IMG/VR virus record: IMGVR_UViG_3300046010_009300
Coordinates: 1 to 22,577 of that record
From: a virus
Length of the DNA stretch: 22,577 nt
Strand: one strand, 5' to 3'
Shown: piece by piece, positions 7,101-22,415 of the stretch
Position numbering within the stretch: the stretch's first letter is position 1
How the letters are laid out: each line of letters starts with the position of its first letter
Notes under the pieces: generated by a model
The model's database searches: none
Told to the model about the DNA's origin: nothing
What the model saw: only the letters and a program-made list of their open reading frames with translations
Program-made: the position numbers and the translations under genes

Positions 7101-8523
7101 CGCGGCCCTTGCCGCCCCTAGCTTGAGAACGCCTGACAGCATCCATCATCGCCATCTGTTCCTTGGCCGTAAAGTCTTTTTCAGTAATTGGTGTGCGCCG
7201 GCCCGTCAAAACGTCTACATAAGTTCTCGACGCTGCATCAAAAAATGGCTCATCCTTGCGCTCTGTTGGTCCTTGAGCCGCGATTCGTTCTATCTGTTGC
7301 GGCGTCAAACGTTCTTGCTCTACTTCACCGCCGTCCGCAAACCGCTTGTTAAACTGCAAATTCAACTGGGGAGAACCCATTGTTCCACGTGGAACATTCA
7401 AGTTTGCATTGAATTGACCACCCTCAACAGGGCGCTCATATCCCAACGAATACGCCTGATTACCATGCATGCCGGCAGATACACGGCCCTCACCTAATGG
7501 CATGGATCCAATAAGATTAGCCATGGCCGGAGCGCCTTGGGGCTTGACAACATTTGCAGTAAACCCCAAACCTTCCGGATCTTGCTGCGTATACGCCAAC
7601 ATCAAAGCACGCGCCGTCTGCATCTTCTCGTCTTTGCTCATGTTGGCCATGTTCAAACCAGCAATGACAGAACCCTCACCAGCCTTGGTCCGCGCGCCGA
7701 GCATCACGGAATCTGTCGTAACTCCGCGGTCCTTCATCCGATTCACATTGCTAAAGTAATTGATGTCGTCAGGACTCTTATCAGAATCCACTTCCCCACC
7801 CTCAGCCATGGTAATGGGCGTGACGCTTAAATCAAGAGATGCCAAATGATTGACAGGCTTGTACTCCCGCATCAACTTCTCTGACTCAGTCTCTTTGTTC
7901 TCGTCGTATGCCTTCTCGTCCTCATCGTCCTTGGCATCAGCCAAAGCCGCTAAAGCAAAAGCTGCCTGATAACTGGCCGGCATGGACTTGATGTCCGGCA
8001 AAGATTTGCCGCTTGCCATGACGGTTGCCGCTGGGGCCTTGGTTGGAGATGCTTCAGCCATTGGAGGCAGGGACGCGGGCAACGGCTCACGTTCCTTTTT
8101 TGCCATTGTTTCACGTGAAACATCCTTGCCAAGAAGTCCCTTGACGCGCTGGACATAGGTTCTTGTCTCTTGGGGCAGGGCTTCTGGTTTTGCGCCAGAA
8201 GCTAACCATTTATCTGTAGCGCCGGGGCCCCAGTTATACGCAACCAAAGCTTTCTCTGTATCGCCGTACTTGCTAAGCATGGCCTGCAAGTAATCCCGCC
8301 CAACCCTTGCAATTTCGTCAGGAGATGATGATTTTGCAGGGATAACGCCAAAGCCGGGATCTGTAATGGTCTTGGGCATGACCTGCATCTCACCAAGGGC
8401 ACCCTTAGGACTTGTGGTCAGAGTTTTGCCGTCATCCTTGTAACGCTTGCCGCGGCTCTCCGCTTGCTTAACAGCAGCAACTATCTCTTCAAAAGTCTGT
8501 TGGGCATTGCTTTGAGCGGCCAT
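4132..8523 (-). CDS. Giant virion protein: lytic transglycosylase plus polyvalent-type C-terminal domain
   Basis: A 1463-aa protein. Residues about 10-130 are an SLT-type transglycosylase: catalytic Glu22 in QAESRG, SPKGALGEMQVMP (38-50), AYNWGPG (95-101) and TYVQRV (122-127). The long middle is low complexity with MAEGGEV and FADGGEV segments. ERLTPQQIERIAA occurs twice (about 402 and 587), with two further LTPQQ sites (about 762 and 1108). The C-terminal about 230 residues contain RHVHELQSDLAQDV, then a helical block and KGGMVERQPTDNRRYL, resembling a domain of phage large polyvalent proteins. It is probably packaged in the virion and ejected to locally cut peptidoglycan during DNA entry. 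ATG at 8523 has AAGGA 9 nt upstream. DNA for about residues 980-1280 looks more AT-rich than its flanks. Confidence 0.85.
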   Translation of the reverse strand: MAAQSNAQQTFEEIVAAVKQAESRGKRYKDDGKTLTTSPKGALGEMQVMPKTITDPGFGVIPAKSSSPDEIARVGRDYLQAMLSKYGDTEKALVAYNWGPGATDKWLASGAKPEALPQETRTYVQRVKGLLGKDVSRETMAKKEREPLPASLPPMAEASPTKAPAATVMASGKSLPDIKSMPASYQAAFALAALADAKDDEDEKAYDENKETESEKLMREYKPVNHLASLDLSVTPITMAEGGEVDSDKSPDDINYFSNVNRMKDRGVTTDSVMLGARTKAGEGSVIAGLNMANMSKDEKMQTARALMLAYTQQDPEGLGFTANVVKPQGAPAMANLIGSMPLGEGRVSAGMHGNQAYSLGYERPVEGGQFNANLNVPRGTMGSPQLNLQFNKRFADGGEVEQERLTPQQIERIAAQGPTERKDEPFFDAASRTYVDVLTGRRTPITEKDFTAKEQMAMMDAVRRSQARGGKGRVGYEDYPTGEQIGPDYVDIRNTLGGFQYKQNPDGSTVISDRYDFHGPRVAEYEKMGTGEKVLKSAKNALTEFVTKGFSPRDLAGELGRAYVGSKGPDVNIRIPVNRADGSPEEGERLTPQQIERIAARESADREAASNAAFIAQKSGIGRKEGNISKALNTGTAYPAIVAGINDVPYDLAGLPVDLTTMAMRPFGYSNQKPMLGSEYLKEKATEAGIRKPTPTDPTLKGFHTFGELGAGLLAPGKIIEGAQALKVAAADALAGFKAGRAEKPSVTDLMTGQRFETPELTPQQLQEFENWRSMSQAQLRAQNLAQRDEAVTRLPQDAQQQLRLFEENAIPRPVEQPLNNPPGWNIVDTGTEVAPALEAAAPVAAEARTMAQLPVVTPVAAPAPMQISAEFPFVGRLDEFAASMQGPAQKEQLINQVKGKFREQDVARLEEALAGLGPKDKVTPAMLQEALANTYSPSRLRSIDELASQGKPMYSNMDNVFAPDKPISGSMNLYIKQTPEAEALAKDAAELKLALNNVFQGRGDSSMFDTIDNILTNSPITGQLKNIGELKQQLSAYRPLYEKFNKIQQEANDAKHMLTYPVISGEKVFGKPLNDVVNERVKTAIQEGISAGRIPPIPHVDVPNQQLTPQQRMEKFVVENSMYAVTKQLRLEEEAKLFTEIMQKGSDKLVQLGVDPIDVTAIINKLPVKPSEDIYAANRGLNSDIQFNEQVSSKIQAVRDSVKAAQGKVQDKMRDRYDRAIEDVNPLIGYRGQHAGVAGEVHPVGFARYTEHTVDMNGKQLNGRHVHELQSDLAQDVRQLGSKSGSLEKDQAELATLKSKLAEVDELDPTQQIEKAKLNKRISTVEKRISLTSPGKYQLEQPFAGFETSPAVEMQLLIKNAIQSTMRSGQDFVTFPGKESSQAKLYEKVLPNLKQAVKDLGGEKAGFDIKPITLPNPSGDSPTVWGVVWSPETAAKIMQKGVPFNKGGMVERQPTDNRRYL

Positions 8524-8569: not shown

Positions 8570-10039
8570 TCAATAATACTCAACAGGGCTTGTGTCTGGC
8601 TCGGTCTCTTCGTTATCGTCAGACTCCAACGCAATAAAGTTGCCAGCACGAAATCTTGTCCAAGCCATCACCGCGGTATCCACTTGGTCGTCATTGTTCC
8701 CATTAGGAAAAGCCGCGCATTCCTCTACAAGGTCCTCGGCCCACTCCTTACCTTCAGGGTACCAGATCATGCCGGACTCCAGCAATGGAGCAACAGCATT
8801 GGCACGGCTGACCTTATCTTGTCCTGACTTACGACCACCGGGCGAGAACATCGTGACAGGAATGCCCATCTTACGAAGTTCCTGCTGCAAGGGCGTGCCG
8901 GTAGCCTTTGCTTCAATCAAAACATTATCAGGCTGCCAATACATGTATTCATCCTTGGCCATCCGTTTGAGTTCAGGAAAGTCCCACCGGCCTTTGCGCA
9001 CGTTCAAGAGCATCAGGTTTGCACCCGAGTCAGCATCAGGATAGAACACGCCCCACGTACTGATAACAGAGAAGTCAGCAGTCTCTTTCTTTGAGTATGC
9101 CGTGTCATACACCTGAATCAGATACTCACACTGCGGGGGATCATCAAACTTCCACTTGCGCCACCAGTTACGCTTCAGAATCGCACCCTCATCATTTGTT
9201 GGCTGCTGCTGCCACTGGGCGTTCCACTTCTTCAAGCCAATGGATACCTTGACCTTCTCTAACTCATCAAGGCTCCAGTAGTCAGGCCACAAGGGTTTTC
9301 CGGACGGCAGAATGGCAGGGAACTCCAAGACCTCCCACTGGTCAGACTTTAAATAGCCCTGCTGCTTGAGCAGGCGGCCAGACAGATCGTCTGTCTTCCA
9401 ACGTGTATTGATCACAATGATCGCGCCGCCCGGCTGTAATCGCTGACGCGGACCAGAGGTGTACCACTCCCACGTGTTCTCCATCGCAGTTTCAGATACA
9501 GCATCCTGCTCGTCCAAGATATCGTCCAGCACGACAACATTACCACCACGGCCCGTCATCGCACCGCCCTTGCCAATGAAGAACGCTTCACCGCCTTGGG
9601 CCGTGTTCCACCGACCGGCAGCCTTGCTGTCAACTGACAGGGCCATCTTAGGGAAAAGTTCCTTGTACTTCTCGTCATCGACAAGGTTACGGATCATCCG
9701 GCCAAAACGCTGCGCTAACTCAGCAGTGTGTGAGCCGACAATGAGTTTAGTGTCCGGGTTACGGCCCATCAGATATGCTGGGAACAGATAGCTGCCAAGC
9801 TGGGACTTACCATGACGGGGAGGCATCGCGATCATCAGGCGTTTGCACTCGCCAGAAATGACACGGTCAAGGGCTTTGGCGATTCGTTTGTGGTGTTCCC
9901 CGACAAGCATCTCGGGCCAGACGTACTGGCAAAAGGACAGGAAGTCAGTGGTTGCACGCTCCTGCGCTTCTAAAAGTTTAAGGCGCAGTTCTAAACGAAG
10001 CTGTTCTTCTTGGACGTCATCGGGTTTTATAGAGTGCAT
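8570..10039 (-). CDS. terL: Terminase large subunit
   Basis: A 489-aa packaging motor ATPase and nuclease. Walker A is MPPRHGKS (72-79), Walker B VVVLDDI (168-174) with the DEQD segment after it, and the coupling motif INTRW lies at 210-214. The RNase-H-like nuclease domain shows VYDTAYSKKETADFS (Asp312), IEAKATG (Glu376) and NNDDQVDTAVMAW (Asp451/Asp454). This fits Terminase_6-type large subunits. It cuts concatemeric DNA and pumps it through the portal. The ATG at 10039 has no clear Shine-Dalgarno sequence, unlike its neighbours. The small subunit lies 5.5 kb away, separated by the accessory island, instead of next to it. Confidence 0.97.
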   Translation of the reverse strand: MHSIKPDDVQEEQLRLELRLKLLEAQERATTDFLSFCQYVWPEMLVGEHHKRIAKALDRVISGECKRLMIAMPPRHGKSQLGSYLFPAYLMGRNPDTKLIVGSHTAELAQRFGRMIRNLVDDEKYKELFPKMALSVDSKAAGRWNTAQGGEAFFIGKGGAMTGRGGNVVVLDDILDEQDAVSETAMENTWEWYTSGPRQRLQPGGAIIVINTRWKTDDLSGRLLKQQGYLKSDQWEVLEFPAILPSGKPLWPDYWSLDELEKVKVSIGLKKWNAQWQQQPTNDEGAILKRNWWRKWKFDDPPQCEYLIQVYDTAYSKKETADFSVISTWGVFYPDADSGANLMLLNVRKGRWDFPELKRMAKDEYMYWQPDNVLIEAKATGTPLQQELRKMGIPVTMFSPGGRKSGQDKVSRANAVAPLLESGMIWYPEGKEWAEDLVEECAAFPNGNNDDQVDTAVMAWTRFRAGNFIALESDDNEETEPDTSPVEYY

Positions 10040-10239
10040 AGGCCACGTTTTGAAATTTGCATAAATATAACCCCTGATTGCATTTAAAACAACAAGGGGG
10101 GTCTTTTGGGGAGACCAAGTTTAAAAAGGTTTGAAATTTGGCAGAAACAGGGCGAAGGTTTAGCCTGAGTGAACTGGGCTGTTTATGGCCCTCCCCCTAG
10201 TTAAGAATGTAACCCCATACATAGACAACAGAGGAACAG

Positions 10240-10294
10240 GCGGGCCCACCCACCCCCGCCACCACCTATGAGGGAAAAAATAAGAAAAAAAGAG
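10240..10294. repeat. G-rich direct repeat, copy 1
   Basis: The 27 nt at 10240-10266 are identical to 12191-12217. In both copies similar purine-rich DNA follows, containing AGGGAAAAAAT and AAGAAAAAAA. Read on the minus strand the core has runs GG-GG-GG-GGGGG-GGG-GGG and could form a G-quadruplex, preceded by T-rich tracts. It lies in the non-coding stretch upstream of terL (10040-10468). The part of that stretch between terL and this repeat, 10040-10239, shows nothing else I can name. Confidence 0.85.
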
Positions 10295-10303
10295 TAAGGG
10301 TAA

Positions 10304-10327
10304 ACACCGATGGCATGCCATCGGTGT
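10304..10327. repeat. Perfect 24-bp palindrome
   Basis: Twelve-base arms ACACCGATGGCA and TGCCATCGGTGT are exactly complementary with no spacer. It is the first of a series of long inverted repeats packed into 10304-10461. On the minus strand it is followed, a few bases on, by T-rich DNA, so it may act as an additional weak terminator. Confidence 0.85.
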
Positions 10328-10338
10328 CTGTGCTATGC

Positions 10339-10361
10339 ATACTGGGCCACAGGCCCAGTAT
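10339..10361. repeat. Inverted repeat, 10-bp stem and 3-nt loop
   Basis: ATACTGGGCC, loop ACA, GGCCCAGTAT. The stem is GC rich in the middle and has no T-run on either side. It overlaps by a few bases with the next inverted repeat, so only one of the two hairpins can form fully at a time. Confidence 0.85.
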
Positions 10362-10384
10362 TACTATACAGAGTATAGTAATAC
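10358..10384. repeat. Inverted repeat, 12-bp AT-rich stem and 3-nt loop
   Basis: GTATTACTATAC, loop AGA, GTATAGTAATAC: a perfect 12-bp stem. It shares its left four bases with the preceding hairpin. The stem itself contains TATACT-like -10 hexamers, though no matching -35 is seen. Confidence 0.85.
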
Positions 10385-10394
10385 ACCGGCTGAC

Positions 10395-10420
10395 AAAAAA
10401 GGCAGCTGGTCGGCTGCCTT
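10395..10420 (-). terminator. Intrinsic terminator of the island transcripts
   Basis: On the minus strand AAGGCAGC, loop CGACCA, GCTGCCTT, followed by a run of Ts (the stem's last two plus four more). It lies 49 nt past the stop of the gene at 10469-10780 and before terL, so it would keep island transcripts from entering the head genes. Confidence 0.85.
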
Positions 10421-10433
10421 CGGGTTTGTGATT

Positions 10434-10461
10434 TCTAGGTTGTATGTACATACAACCTAGA
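10434..10461. repeat. Perfect 28-bp palindrome
   Basis: Fourteen-base arms TCTAGGTTGTATGT and ACATACAACCTAGA with no spacer. It lies 7 nt past the stop codon of the neighbouring gene, between that gene and its terminator. Candidate roles are a dimeric protein-binding site, an mRNA 3' end stabiliser or part of the terminator array. Confidence 0.88.
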
Positions 10462-10468
10462 CCAGCGC

Positions 10469-10780
10469 TTACTGGTTCACGTGTAGGCCGATCAGGTCAC
10501 CGGCCTTGGCTCTTTCTTCTTCGTCCTTCTTGGCCTGATAAACTTCGCGGGCCGTGTTCGCTCTGGTCTTTGCTTCTTCTTTGCTGACCAGTTCGAACTG
10601 GTCTATGCTGACTTTCGCGCCTTCGTTCGGAAAGTAAAGGCTATCGCCTTGGCCATACATCCACTCGTAATCCACTCTGGTCAGAGTGATCAGGAAACCG
10701 GCCAGAGCTTGAATGTCCTTGTTGGACATTTCAGTTGGTAACACGTAACGGTTGCTATCAATTGTGATGACTTTAGTCAT
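10469..10780 (-). CDS. Island protein of unknown function (103 aa)
   Basis: A soluble 103-aa protein. It has a beta-like N-terminus (MTKVITIDSNRYVLPTEMSN), a middle segment LAGFLITLTRVDYEWMYGQG, and a highly charged helical C-terminus (KEEAKTRANTAREVYQAKKD) ending DLIGLHVNQ. I do not recognise a family. It is a single-gene transcription unit: an extended -10 promoter and a 5' hairpin precede it and an intrinsic terminator follows. Its leader is a 21-nt exact copy of the one before the gene at 11344. Start ATG at 10780 follows the leader AGAAAGAAGAGAGAAC. Confidence 0.8.
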   Translation of the reverse strand: MTKVITIDSNRYVLPTEMSNKDIQALAGFLITLTRVDYEWMYGQGDSLYFPNEGAKVSIDQFELVSKEEAKTRANTAREVYQAKKDEEERAKAGDLIGLHVNQ

Positions 10781-10784
10781 GATG

Positions 10785-10848
10785 TTCTCTCTTCTTTCTA
10801 GGGTTTAAGTTGCACTGGATCGGGTGACCCAGTGCATGGATTATATCA
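10785..10848 (-). promoter_or_regulatory. Extended -10 promoter, 5' hairpin and leader for the 103-aa gene
   Basis: TGATATAAT (complement of 10840-10848) is an extended -10 site just past the stop of the upstream gene; no good -35 is seen. A hairpin follows immediately (TGCACTGG/CCAGTGCA, 10811-10836). Then comes the leader TAGAAAGAAGAGAGAA (10785-10800), which includes the ribosome site. The 21 nt at 10785-10805 recur exactly at 11349-11369. Confidence 0.72.
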
Positions 10849-10852
10849 CGGT

Positions 10853-11344
10853 TTAACTTAGCGTTACATTAAATGTCAGATTATTAATTGCTTCGCTAAT
10901 CTTTTCATCTAGGTTGTTATCGGCCCAAGATTCTATTGCATCGTCCACGTTGTAATCGGTGATATCAAAATTGTTTGACATCCAGTTGGAGATGTCGTCG
11001 TCAATATCTTCGTTGGCCAAGATGTCCATCATTTTGTCGCGCAGGTTGTTATCCATCCAGTCGTCAATCGACGCGTTGATTTCTACTTGGGTGTTGATTT
11101 GCAGAACTGCAATGCGTTTATCAATGATTTCAAACAATGCTTCTTCTAAGGGTGTTGGCCCTTTAGACTGGGTCACTGCACTTTCAATCGTATTGACTAG
11201 GACGCCGATTGCAGTCTTTGCGGCCGCATACTCAGTGCCTTGAAAAGTGCTGATCATGGTCTCCGCGTAATCCAGTGCGGACTGAATGTCCATGCCACGT
11301 GAACCAAACAGGTTATTGCGAAAGGGTGTTACTGGGTTGCTCAT
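10853..11344 (-). CDS. Acidic island protein with a threefold W-x-x-N-N repeat (163 aa)
   Basis: An unrecognised 163-aa protein. The first half is helical (SALDYAETMISTFQGTEYAA). The second half is strongly acidic and contains three related units: DDWMDNNL (94-101), SNWMSNNF (119-126) and ESWADNNL (138-145), each next to helix-forming acidic residues. The acidity and repeats could suit a DNA-mimic or protein-binding role, but that is only inference. It has its own promoter overlapping the upstream stop codon, an 18-bp palindrome at the mRNA start and the AGAAAGAAGAGAG leader. It could be an anti-host protein. Confidence 0.8.
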   Translation of the reverse strand: MSNPVTPFRNNLFGSRGMDIQSALDYAETMISTFQGTEYAAAKTAIGVLVNTIESAVTQSKGPTPLEEALFEIIDKRIAVLQINTQVEINASIDDWMDNNLRDKMMDILANEDIDDDISNWMSNNFDITDYNVDDAIESWADNNLDEKISEAINNLTFNVTLS

Positions 11345-11348
11345 TGCG

Positions 11349-11406
11349 TTCTCTCTTCTTTCTAGGGTTGTATCTAATCGGCCGATTAGACAGTTGAATT
11401 ATAGCA
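11349..11406 (-). promoter_or_regulatory. Extended -10 promoter, palindrome and leader for the 163-aa gene
   Basis: TGCTATAAT (complement of 11398-11406) contains the stop codon of the upstream gene. CGTGCAAAGTGG lies just upstream on the minus strand, matching the TTGCAAAGTG box of other island promoters. TCTAATCGG/CCGATTAGA (11373-11390) is a perfect 18-bp palindrome near the expected transcript start. The leader at 11349-11369 is shared exactly with the gene at 10780. Confidence 0.72.
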
Positions 11407-12190: not shown

Positions 12191-12247
12191 GCGGGCCCAC
12201 CCACCCCCGCCACCACCATTCAAGGGAAAAAATCAAAGAAAAAAACC
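12191..12247. repeat. G-rich direct repeat, copy 2
   Basis: Bases 12191-12217 are identical to 10240-10266, and both are followed by AGGGAAAAAAT and AAGAAAAAAA. The two copies bracket the palindrome cluster and the genes from 10469 to 12111, about 1.95 kb apart. On the minus strand this copy sits between the terminator of the DUF932 gene and the promoter of the four-gene operon. Confidence 0.85.
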
Positions 12248-12427: not shown

Positions 12428-13384
12428 TTAAGCGGAAAGCAATTCCAAAGCCCTATTTTTAAGCGCTGCTCCCGTTCCAAACCATGCGGACTCCATGCGG
12501 GTATTGTCTGAGCGCCCGCGCTCATGATCAACTAATTCAGTGACAGCATTTAATGCGGCCCACCTTGTGCCGGCCACGCCCTGAATATCGGAACCGATAG
12601 CGCGCCCGTTGAATAATTCAATGATTCGCTTGAATGCTCGGCTATCTTTGATTTCAATTTTGCCGGTGTGGTAGGGCTTCAATAATTCAGTTACGAACGC
12701 GTCGCACTGTTCGCCTGTCATTGTCTCGCCGGCCAACTTGCGGGATTGCACTAAAAAGCGCTCCCACTGGTTCGCGACAATACCAAGCTGCAGCCGGACA
12801 TCGTCCGCATTGAATCGCTCAGAATGCAAAACCCTAATTTGTGATTCGCTATTGTTTACCGCTGCTGTGATTGTGTTATTGCACACCACGCGAACACTGG
12901 TGAATTTTGCAATGGTGGCCATGGTTCCATCGTACGATGTGCCAAGCAAAACATAAGGGCGCACTGTGTCACCCTCGACAATATCGGCCCCCTCGCTCAC
13001 TTTCGCTAAGGCCCACACCCTCCGGCCGTAACTAAGCGCTCCCGCGGTTTCCATGGTGAACCCGCCAAGATCCACCAACTTACTAAAAAACCCCATTACT
13101 TCGGAGGGTTGAACCACGTTATAACCTTGTGACACTACGGCCAAGGGCGCGCCCGTATCGCTTCTATGCAAAACCTTTCTATCTGGCCAAGCTTGGGGGG
13201 CACTGGTGGCCGGTGTGTTAAATAAAACGGGGCTTTCTAATACGTCATAAGCTAAACCGGCTTGCTGTGTCCATTCCTGAATTGTCGCGCCCGCTGTTAG
13301 CTGTTGGCCTAATTTGTGCCATGGTGCAAGGCCTGAATATGCAATAGCTGCATTTCCTGTTGTTGTGTCGATCATGTGTGCCAT
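12428..13384 (-). CDS. DUF932 family protein
   Basis: A 318-aa protein with the family hallmarks: an N-terminal AYSGLAPWHKLGQQL (15-29), then a segment with SDTGAPLAVVSQGYNVVQPS, the FFSKLVDLGGFTMETAGAL block, and the VVCNNTITAA motif about residue 170. DUF932 (phage/plasmid-like protein, TIGR03299) is common in phages and conjugative plasmids; its biochemical role is not established, although DNA-metabolism roles have been suggested. Length matches the family. It has its own promoter with a TTGCAAAGTG box, a small 5' hairpin and the AGAAAGGATAGAGA leader, and a terminator follows it, making it a single-gene unit inside the island. Confidence 0.93.
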   Translation of the reverse strand: MAHMIDTTTGNAAIAYSGLAPWHKLGQQLTAGATIQEWTQQAGLAYDVLESPVLFNTPATSAPQAWPDRKVLHRSDTGAPLAVVSQGYNVVQPSEVMGFFSKLVDLGGFTMETAGALSYGRRVWALAKVSEGADIVEGDTVRPYVLLGTSYDGTMATIAKFTSVRVVCNNTITAAVNNSESQIRVLHSERFNADDVRLQLGIVANQWERFLVQSRKLAGETMTGEQCDAFVTELLKPYHTGKIEIKDSRAFKRIIELFNGRAIGSDIQGVAGTRWAALNAVTELVDHERGRSDNTRMESAWFGTGAALKNRALELLSA

Positions 13385-22248: not shown

Positions 22249-22322
22249 TGGGGTGGACGGGGGAATCGAACCCTCGCTGACAGATTCACAGACTGTCGTG
22301 CTGCCACTACACTACGAACACC
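22249..22322 (-). tRNA. tRNA-His (GTG), imperfect acceptor stem
   Basis: On the minus strand the anticodon loop CTGTGAA gives anticodon GTG, and the T-loop TTCGATT, D-loop GG and an encoded CCA fit a tRNA. The D arm (TA GTGT ... GCAC) and T arm pair well apart from single mismatches, and the anticodon stem has a T-T pair at its end. The acceptor stem GTGTTCG against CGTCCAC pairs at only five of seven positions, with two adjacent mismatches, and a G-1/C73 pair may exist. The 5' end can also form an alternative hairpin with upstream sequence. Supplied to help decode CAC/CAT. Confidence 0.75.
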
Positions 22323-22337
22323 GTAGTGGTCAATGAT

Positions 22338-22415
22338 TGGTCTGGGTGGCAGGATTTGAACCTGCGGCCTCCGCCTTCCAAGGGCGGCCGTCTACCGGGC
22401 TGACAATACACCCAG
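22338..22415 (-). tRNA. tRNA-Pro (TGG)
   Basis: On the minus strand CTGGGTG pairs with CACCCAG (seven bp). The anticodon stem CCGCC/GGCGG encloses loop CTTGGAA, giving anticodon TGG; the T arm GCAGG/CCTGC encloses TTCAAAT; CCA is encoded. Near-canonical proline tRNA, transcribed with tRNA-His from downstream of the DNA polymerase gene. Confidence 0.92.

Follow-up and report, generated by a model that had tools for sequence, protein, structure and literature searches.

Perfect hairpins at the gene borders of a small-gene island upstream of terL in uncultured aquatic phages: putative mRNA end caps rewritten by template switching

A stem-loop at the 5′ terminus of the phage T7 gene 10 leader stabilises the mRNA. 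Such 5′-terminal stem-loops also stabilise the ompA and papA mRNAs of Escherichia coli (Emory, Bouvet and Belasco 1992, as cited in PMC3997798), and pairing of the 5′ end impedes RppH and RNase E in this bacterium (PMC3997798). Template switching maintains hairpins in rRNA genes (PMC8794818) and in yeast genes (PMC8604942), and loop inversion is its signature. The phage locus described here resembles ompA, papA and T7 gene 10 in that a stem-loop lies at or beside the predicted transcript start and before the ribosome-binding site, but differs from them in that the layout recurs before two conserved and several accessory genes throughout a phage family, with perfect stems of free sequence. Its hairpins share with the rRNA and yeast cases the homogenisation of arms and the exact inversion of loops between close relatives; unlike those cases, they are concentrated in one 2.7-kb region and hundreds of them are distinct. 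Hairpin H2 follows gene B and is like a Rho-independent terminator in its GC stem and its U-tract on the coding strand, whereas about 86% of the island hairpins are not followed by a T-run on the terL strand. Both stem-loop mRNA ends and hairpins shaped by template switching are already known; new is their combination in a dense island, and our literature search found no paper describing such phage gene borders.

The window, that is, the whole stretch of DNA analysed (22,577 nucleotides of IMG/VR record IMGVR_UViG_3300046010_009300), is a 22.6-kb virus fragment in which the genes flanking the hairpin cluster lie on the minus strand. Their order is terL, a 430-bp gap with the cluster, gene B, gene A, more small ORFs and a DUF932 gene:

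8570–10039, minus strand: terL, encoding the large terminase subunit and bounding the island on its inner side (PHROG 38, 1.6e-113)
10040–10290, minus strand: conserved non-coding leader of terL, from the alignment of relatives, with a G-rich block at 10245–10266 and a promoter-like TTGTTT-17-TATATT near terL
10469–10780, minus strand: gene B, conserved small gene before terL, 103 amino acids, homologues in 79 of 125 loci
10853–11344, minus strand: gene A, conserved small gene, 163 amino acids, homologues in 89 of 125 loci
12428–13384, minus strand: DUF932 gene, outer side of the small-gene island

Gene B had no match in PHROG, Pfam or the phage collection, and gene A matched no protein family and no phage. 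The 125 non-redundant loci of relatives were gathered by terL searches of viral contigs; the closest annotated relatives by terL identity were DSL-LC04 (63%) and the Pelagibacter phages HTVC027P (55%) and HTVC023P (50%). DSL-LC04 is a lake metagenome phage of the proposed ‘Dishuiviridae’ with a predicted gammaproteobacterial host (PMC10611076), and the hairpin-bearing family comprises lake and sea bacterial viruses. The region upstream of terL in DSL-LC04 and HTVC027P holds no dense island of perfect hairpins, and that of HTVC023P has a few hairpins without the −10 layout described below. An Rfam covariance-model search of the whole window up to E = 1 returned nothing but two tRNAs; genes for tRNA-His and tRNA-Pro lie at 22250–22415.

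The original prediction placed five long inverted repeats in positions 10304–10461, and all five are present there:

10434–10461, minus strand: H1, perfect palindrome of 28 bp, post-stop (3′) hairpin of gene B, beginning 7 nt past its stop
10395–10420, minus strand: H2, predicted intrinsic terminator of the gene B unit, stem 10399–10420, U-tract running from 10400 to 10395
10358–10384, minus strand: H3, 12-bp stem with a 3-nt loop (12+3+12), the loop exactly inverted (TCT/AGA) in close relatives
10363–10368, minus strand: TATAGT, −10-like, inside H3, ending 1 nt before H4, found only in the window's lineage
10339–10361, minus strand: H4, 10-bp stem with a 3-nt loop (10+3+10), the loop inverted (TGT/ACA) in relatives
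10304–10327, minus strand: H5, perfect palindrome of 24 bp in the sequence

Their number is far above chance by shuffling. Any arm of at least 8 nt appeared in just 12 of 500 dinucleotide shuffles of the cluster's 200 bp; arms of at least 10 nt in the whole window belong to H1, H3, H4 and H5 only, and whole-window shuffles gave 0 or 1. The intrinsic terminator that had been proposed within the cluster corresponds to H2, which shows a GC-rich stem and a U-tract on the transcribed minus (terL) strand after a gene, and which is kept in 19 relatives with 99.2% of cells paired; an automated terminator scan did not list the 10399–10420 stem, which was identified by reading the sequence. A U-tract directly after the stem is absent at H1, H3, H4 and H5 on either strand. 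Two stems were also said to overlap and to be mutually exclusive: H3 and H4 do overlap by 4 nt (10358–10361), but they exclude each other only at full length, since in the predicted fold one stays whole and the other is cut to 8 bp. Folding energy gave no basis for choosing a strand of the cluster, since the two are predicted to fold with similar stability (z −8.0 and −7.1).

The structure of the whole cluster beats all 500 shuffles and all slid versions, in counts that share ancestry and are not probabilities. Within the close group, H1 and the terminator H2 occur in all sequences, and the arms of H3 and H4 change together. In the alignment of relatives, 98.7% of the H1 cells are paired and 4 pairs have changed on both sides. 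H3 stands in two registers in two lineages and has therefore been re-formed, not merely adjusted; its low pairing over the whole alignment (71.5%) reflects the shifted register in the second lineage and not loss of the hairpin. The comparison with relatives that had been suggested as a check on the pairing accordingly found compensatory change that keeps it, so that the outcome named beforehand as refuting the prediction did not occur. The exact H5 palindrome was found in only two other stretches, and in other lineages the vicinity of H5 holds a hairpin and then a T-run, as in a terminator. In many lineages, the gap after gene B opens with a hairpin lacking a T-run, followed by a terminator with a T-run, in unrelated sequences; H1 and H2 are this arrangement as it appears in the window. 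At locus L147, an extra gene occupies the slot after gene B and brings a TATAAT and a hairpin of its own; by a tentative analogy, H3 and H4 may be the remnant of such a slot between gene B and terL.

The cluster is not peculiar to one spot, being the largest border in an island of small genes between the DUF932 gene and terL, where perfect hairpins are present at nearly all junctions of these genes. When perfect inverted repeats (arms of at least 10 nt, loops of at most 8 nt) were binned by distance from terL in the 125 loci, they crowded into about 2.75 kb upstream of this gene, with a peak of 6.6 per kb at −500 to −251, 0.5–2 per kb in the rest of the island and few beyond 2750 nt. None with arms of at least 10 nt lies inside terL, and over about 6.5 kb downstream there are 5 in all. 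The density is about 7 per kb in the gap between gene B and terL and 11.6 per kb in that between genes A and B, compared with 0.04 per kb in terL and downstream. Relatives of 61 kb show the same concentration genome-wide, with few hairpins elsewhere, mostly terminator-like. Perfect stems are enriched about seventyfold in the island over terL and downstream, and imperfect stems about four- to fivefold; the numbers of perfect to imperfect stems are 418:311 in the island, 11:126 in terL and downstream, 11:51 in 100 kb of E. coli and 0:12 in T7. A T-run follows the hairpin on the terL strand in 96 cases and on the opposite strand in 17, of 672. The analysis supports the view that the cluster does more than terminate transcription. 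The same hairpin or hairpin pair also occurs at two gene borders of one genome in L063, L122, L073 and L176, as though whole border segments were being copied or exchanged.

Upstream of genes B and A, hairpins lie between −10 boxes and start codons, which the original prediction had missed:

10811–10836, minus strand: 5′ hairpin of gene B, with a stem of 8 bp and further inner pairs, one of them G–U, 30 nt before the ATG
10840–10845, minus strand: TATAAT (−10) preceded by TGA, 3 nt before the gene B hairpin
11373–11390, minus strand: 5′ hairpin of gene A, perfect palindrome of 18 bp, 28 nt before the ATG
11398–11403, minus strand: TATAAT (−10) preceded by TGC, 7 nt before the gene A hairpin

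The leaders of genes A and B are near-constant among relatives, consisting of an extended −10 (TGnTATAAT), 2–7 nt, a perfect hairpin, about 20–28 nt that include a Shine-Dalgarno sequence, and the ATG, and the 3′ end of the hairpin mostly lies 16–33 nt before the start codon. A TATAAT-like hexamer ends 2–7 nt before 111 of 746 distinct hairpins, compared with 8.9 expected from random island positions; at genes A and B of many relatives, this spacing fits a predicted transcription start at the base of the hairpin. Perfect hairpins with stems of 8 bp or more are present in 66 of 68 distinct gene B leaders (0.5 in shuffles), with 45 arm sequences whose mean identity is 34%; pairing is therefore conserved and sequence is not. 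At the other end, a hairpin starts 0–20 nt after the stops of genes A and B in most genomes; for gene B, the distance from the stop to the first hairpin is 0–10 nt in 63 of 79 homologues. The loops of the 5′ hairpins are one-sided (AGCC 31, GGCT 0). G–T and A–C mismatches on the coding strand number 303:233 in the island and 113:130 outside, and a stringent one-mismatch count yielded too few cases to separate G–U from A–C. In several families of accessory genes, no hairpin precedes the start. In the gap between gene B and terL, 191 of 199 hairpins have no good −10 box before them, and a −10 box 2–7 nt upstream is absent at H1–H3 and H5.

How the hairpins change can be read from close relatives. 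Eight distinct exact loop inversions were found, in loops of 3–4 nt with arms and flanks kept, while control loops that were merely reversed or merely complemented numbered 0 and 0. Six of the eight fully different 3-nt loops are inversions, and between L048 and L049 the loop alone is inverted amid 48 identical flanking bases. On this evidence, template switching during replication rewrites the hairpins, and it also explains why island stems are perfect far more often than those of E. coli or T7; the excess of perfect over imperfect stems is the arm homogenisation seen in template-switch evolution. A recombination hot spot was among the additional roles originally considered for the cluster; the site is a hot spot of template-switch mutation. 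Compensatory stem changes commonly serve as proof that RNA structure is under selection. Given template switching, however, inference from covariation is weakened, because a change on both sides does not have to reflect two separate events kept for their pairing, and the near lack of imperfect stems could be explained by mutation bias alone. A tally of changes on one arm and on both arms was not decisive, since it mixed lost with changed hairpins, and the ratio of perfect to imperfect stems and the loop-inversion test were used instead; one-sided changes between relatives are also common. The argument for selection on the hairpins is instead their constant placement relative to −10 boxes and start codons, the one-sided AGCC loop and the modest G–T excess on the coding strand.

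Considering these results, we propose that the hairpins serve as mRNA end caps, together with one terminator, and are kept perfect by template switching, an explanation that we hold to be probable while granting it a substantial chance of being wrong. The island would consist of small, separately transcribed genes. Transcription would start right after the extended −10, so that the mRNA begins at or a few nucleotides from a perfect hairpin, which may block this end against decay of the RppH/RNase E type. The post-stop hairpin, plus the U-tract terminator after gene B, would close and shield the 3′ end, and the conserved island genes are typically framed by stem-loops in this way. The arms would drift freely yet stay perfect, as template switching uses one arm as the template for the other and at times inverts the loop. 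We infer promoter activity, RNA formation with its transcript ends, and the protection and stability of the mRNAs from the nucleotide sequence. By analogy with E. coli, where RppH and RNase E are impeded by pairing at the 5′ end, the hairpins most likely serve to protect short phage mRNAs. Palindromes with zero loop are not ideal RNA hairpins and count against the cap reading, as do the similar folding of both strands, the accessory families with no hairpin at the start, the possible role of mutation bias and the common one-sided changes. Its weakest part is H3–H5, which are unexplained as 5′ caps because good −10 boxes are lacking before nearly all hairpins of the gap between gene B and terL; the best in the cluster is the TATAGT 1 nt before H4, a weak candidate for the start signal of an RNA that would begin in H4. 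Most likely, H3–H5 are further stem-loops of the same kind or remains of the gene slot between gene B and terL. More tentatively, and with a greater risk of error, the stem-loop at both mRNA ends may be a generic format for the small-gene block, in which any pairing sequence serves and template switching provides the upkeep; if so, hairpins diversify quickly without ever losing pairing.

The same loop inversions and near-perfect arms would also be expected if the hairpins had no function and were template-switch by-products of an unusually replicating or recombining region, tolerated where coding constraint is absent. The copying of one hairpin into different gaps of the same genome and the shortness of gaps elsewhere in the genome agree with this, but the constant distances from −10 boxes and start codons and the one-sided loop orientation of the 5′ hairpins do not, and other gaps of the same genomes carry few hairpins, mostly terminator-like; we regard this alternative as unlikely, though one to be taken seriously. 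The position between co-directional small genes, just before the Shine-Dalgarno sequence, would suit RNase III-like intercistronic sites at which one long transcript of the island is cleaved into mRNAs of single genes, like the early RNA of phage T7. However, a TATAAT directly before many hairpins makes processing unnecessary there, and stems of 8–14 bp fall below the usual length of RNase III substrates, making such processing distinctly improbable.

Perfect dyads right after −10 boxes also recall operators for a dimeric repressor at the transcription start, such as lac O1, and 32 contig stretches contain the H1 core GTTGTATGTACATACAAC unchanged. A search for a shared half-site among 45 and 35 arm sequences nevertheless gave a mean identity of 34–35%, although a hairpin subfamily of the form TATCGG...CCGATA recurs: arms differ nearly at random between the genes of one genome and between relatives, half-site spacing varies, and other lineages carry unrelated sequence at the H1 place. 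An operator role is thus very unlikely. The least credit is given to a replication origin or a terminase packaging (cos/pac) site, both of which had been raised for the cluster; its position beside terL and the strongly conserved non-coding leader there speak for them. GC skew follows gene direction and gives an origin no support, with no matching turn at the cluster; against packaging, similar hairpins mark gene borders as far as 2.7 kb off, DSL-LC04 has no such perfect palindromes, and many contigs run through the site. A packaging site could lie within the conserved terL leader instead of the hairpins.

The proposed mRNA end caps, if correct, mark a compact natural expression format in uncultured aquatic phages, comprising promoter, 5′ hairpin, ribosome site, gene and 3′ hairpin. 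With hundreds of homologous hairpins, exact inversions and constant regulatory spacing, the shares of mutation bias and selection become directly measurable.

Several other features were observed in these genomes. About 250 bp of non-coding DNA upstream of terL (10040–10290) are strongly conserved. The G-rich block GGTGGTGGCGGGGGTGGGTGGGCCCGC, a possible G-quadruplex, follows a T-run on the minus strand twice in the window (10245–10266 and 12196–12217). It is present in one to three copies at 48 of the 125 loci, where it is confined to the island and to the coding strand. Two exact parS-like palindromes, TGTTCCACGTGGAACA and TGTTTCACGTGAAACA (ParB site consensus TGTTYCACGTGRAACA), lie at 7381–7396 and 8107–8122, both inside a 1463-amino acid ORF with a transglycosylase domain after terL, and may point to use or titration of the host ParABS system. 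The parS-like site recurs near terL in many relatives, adjoining the terL start in L021–L024 and lying in non-coding hairpins in G003 and L192.
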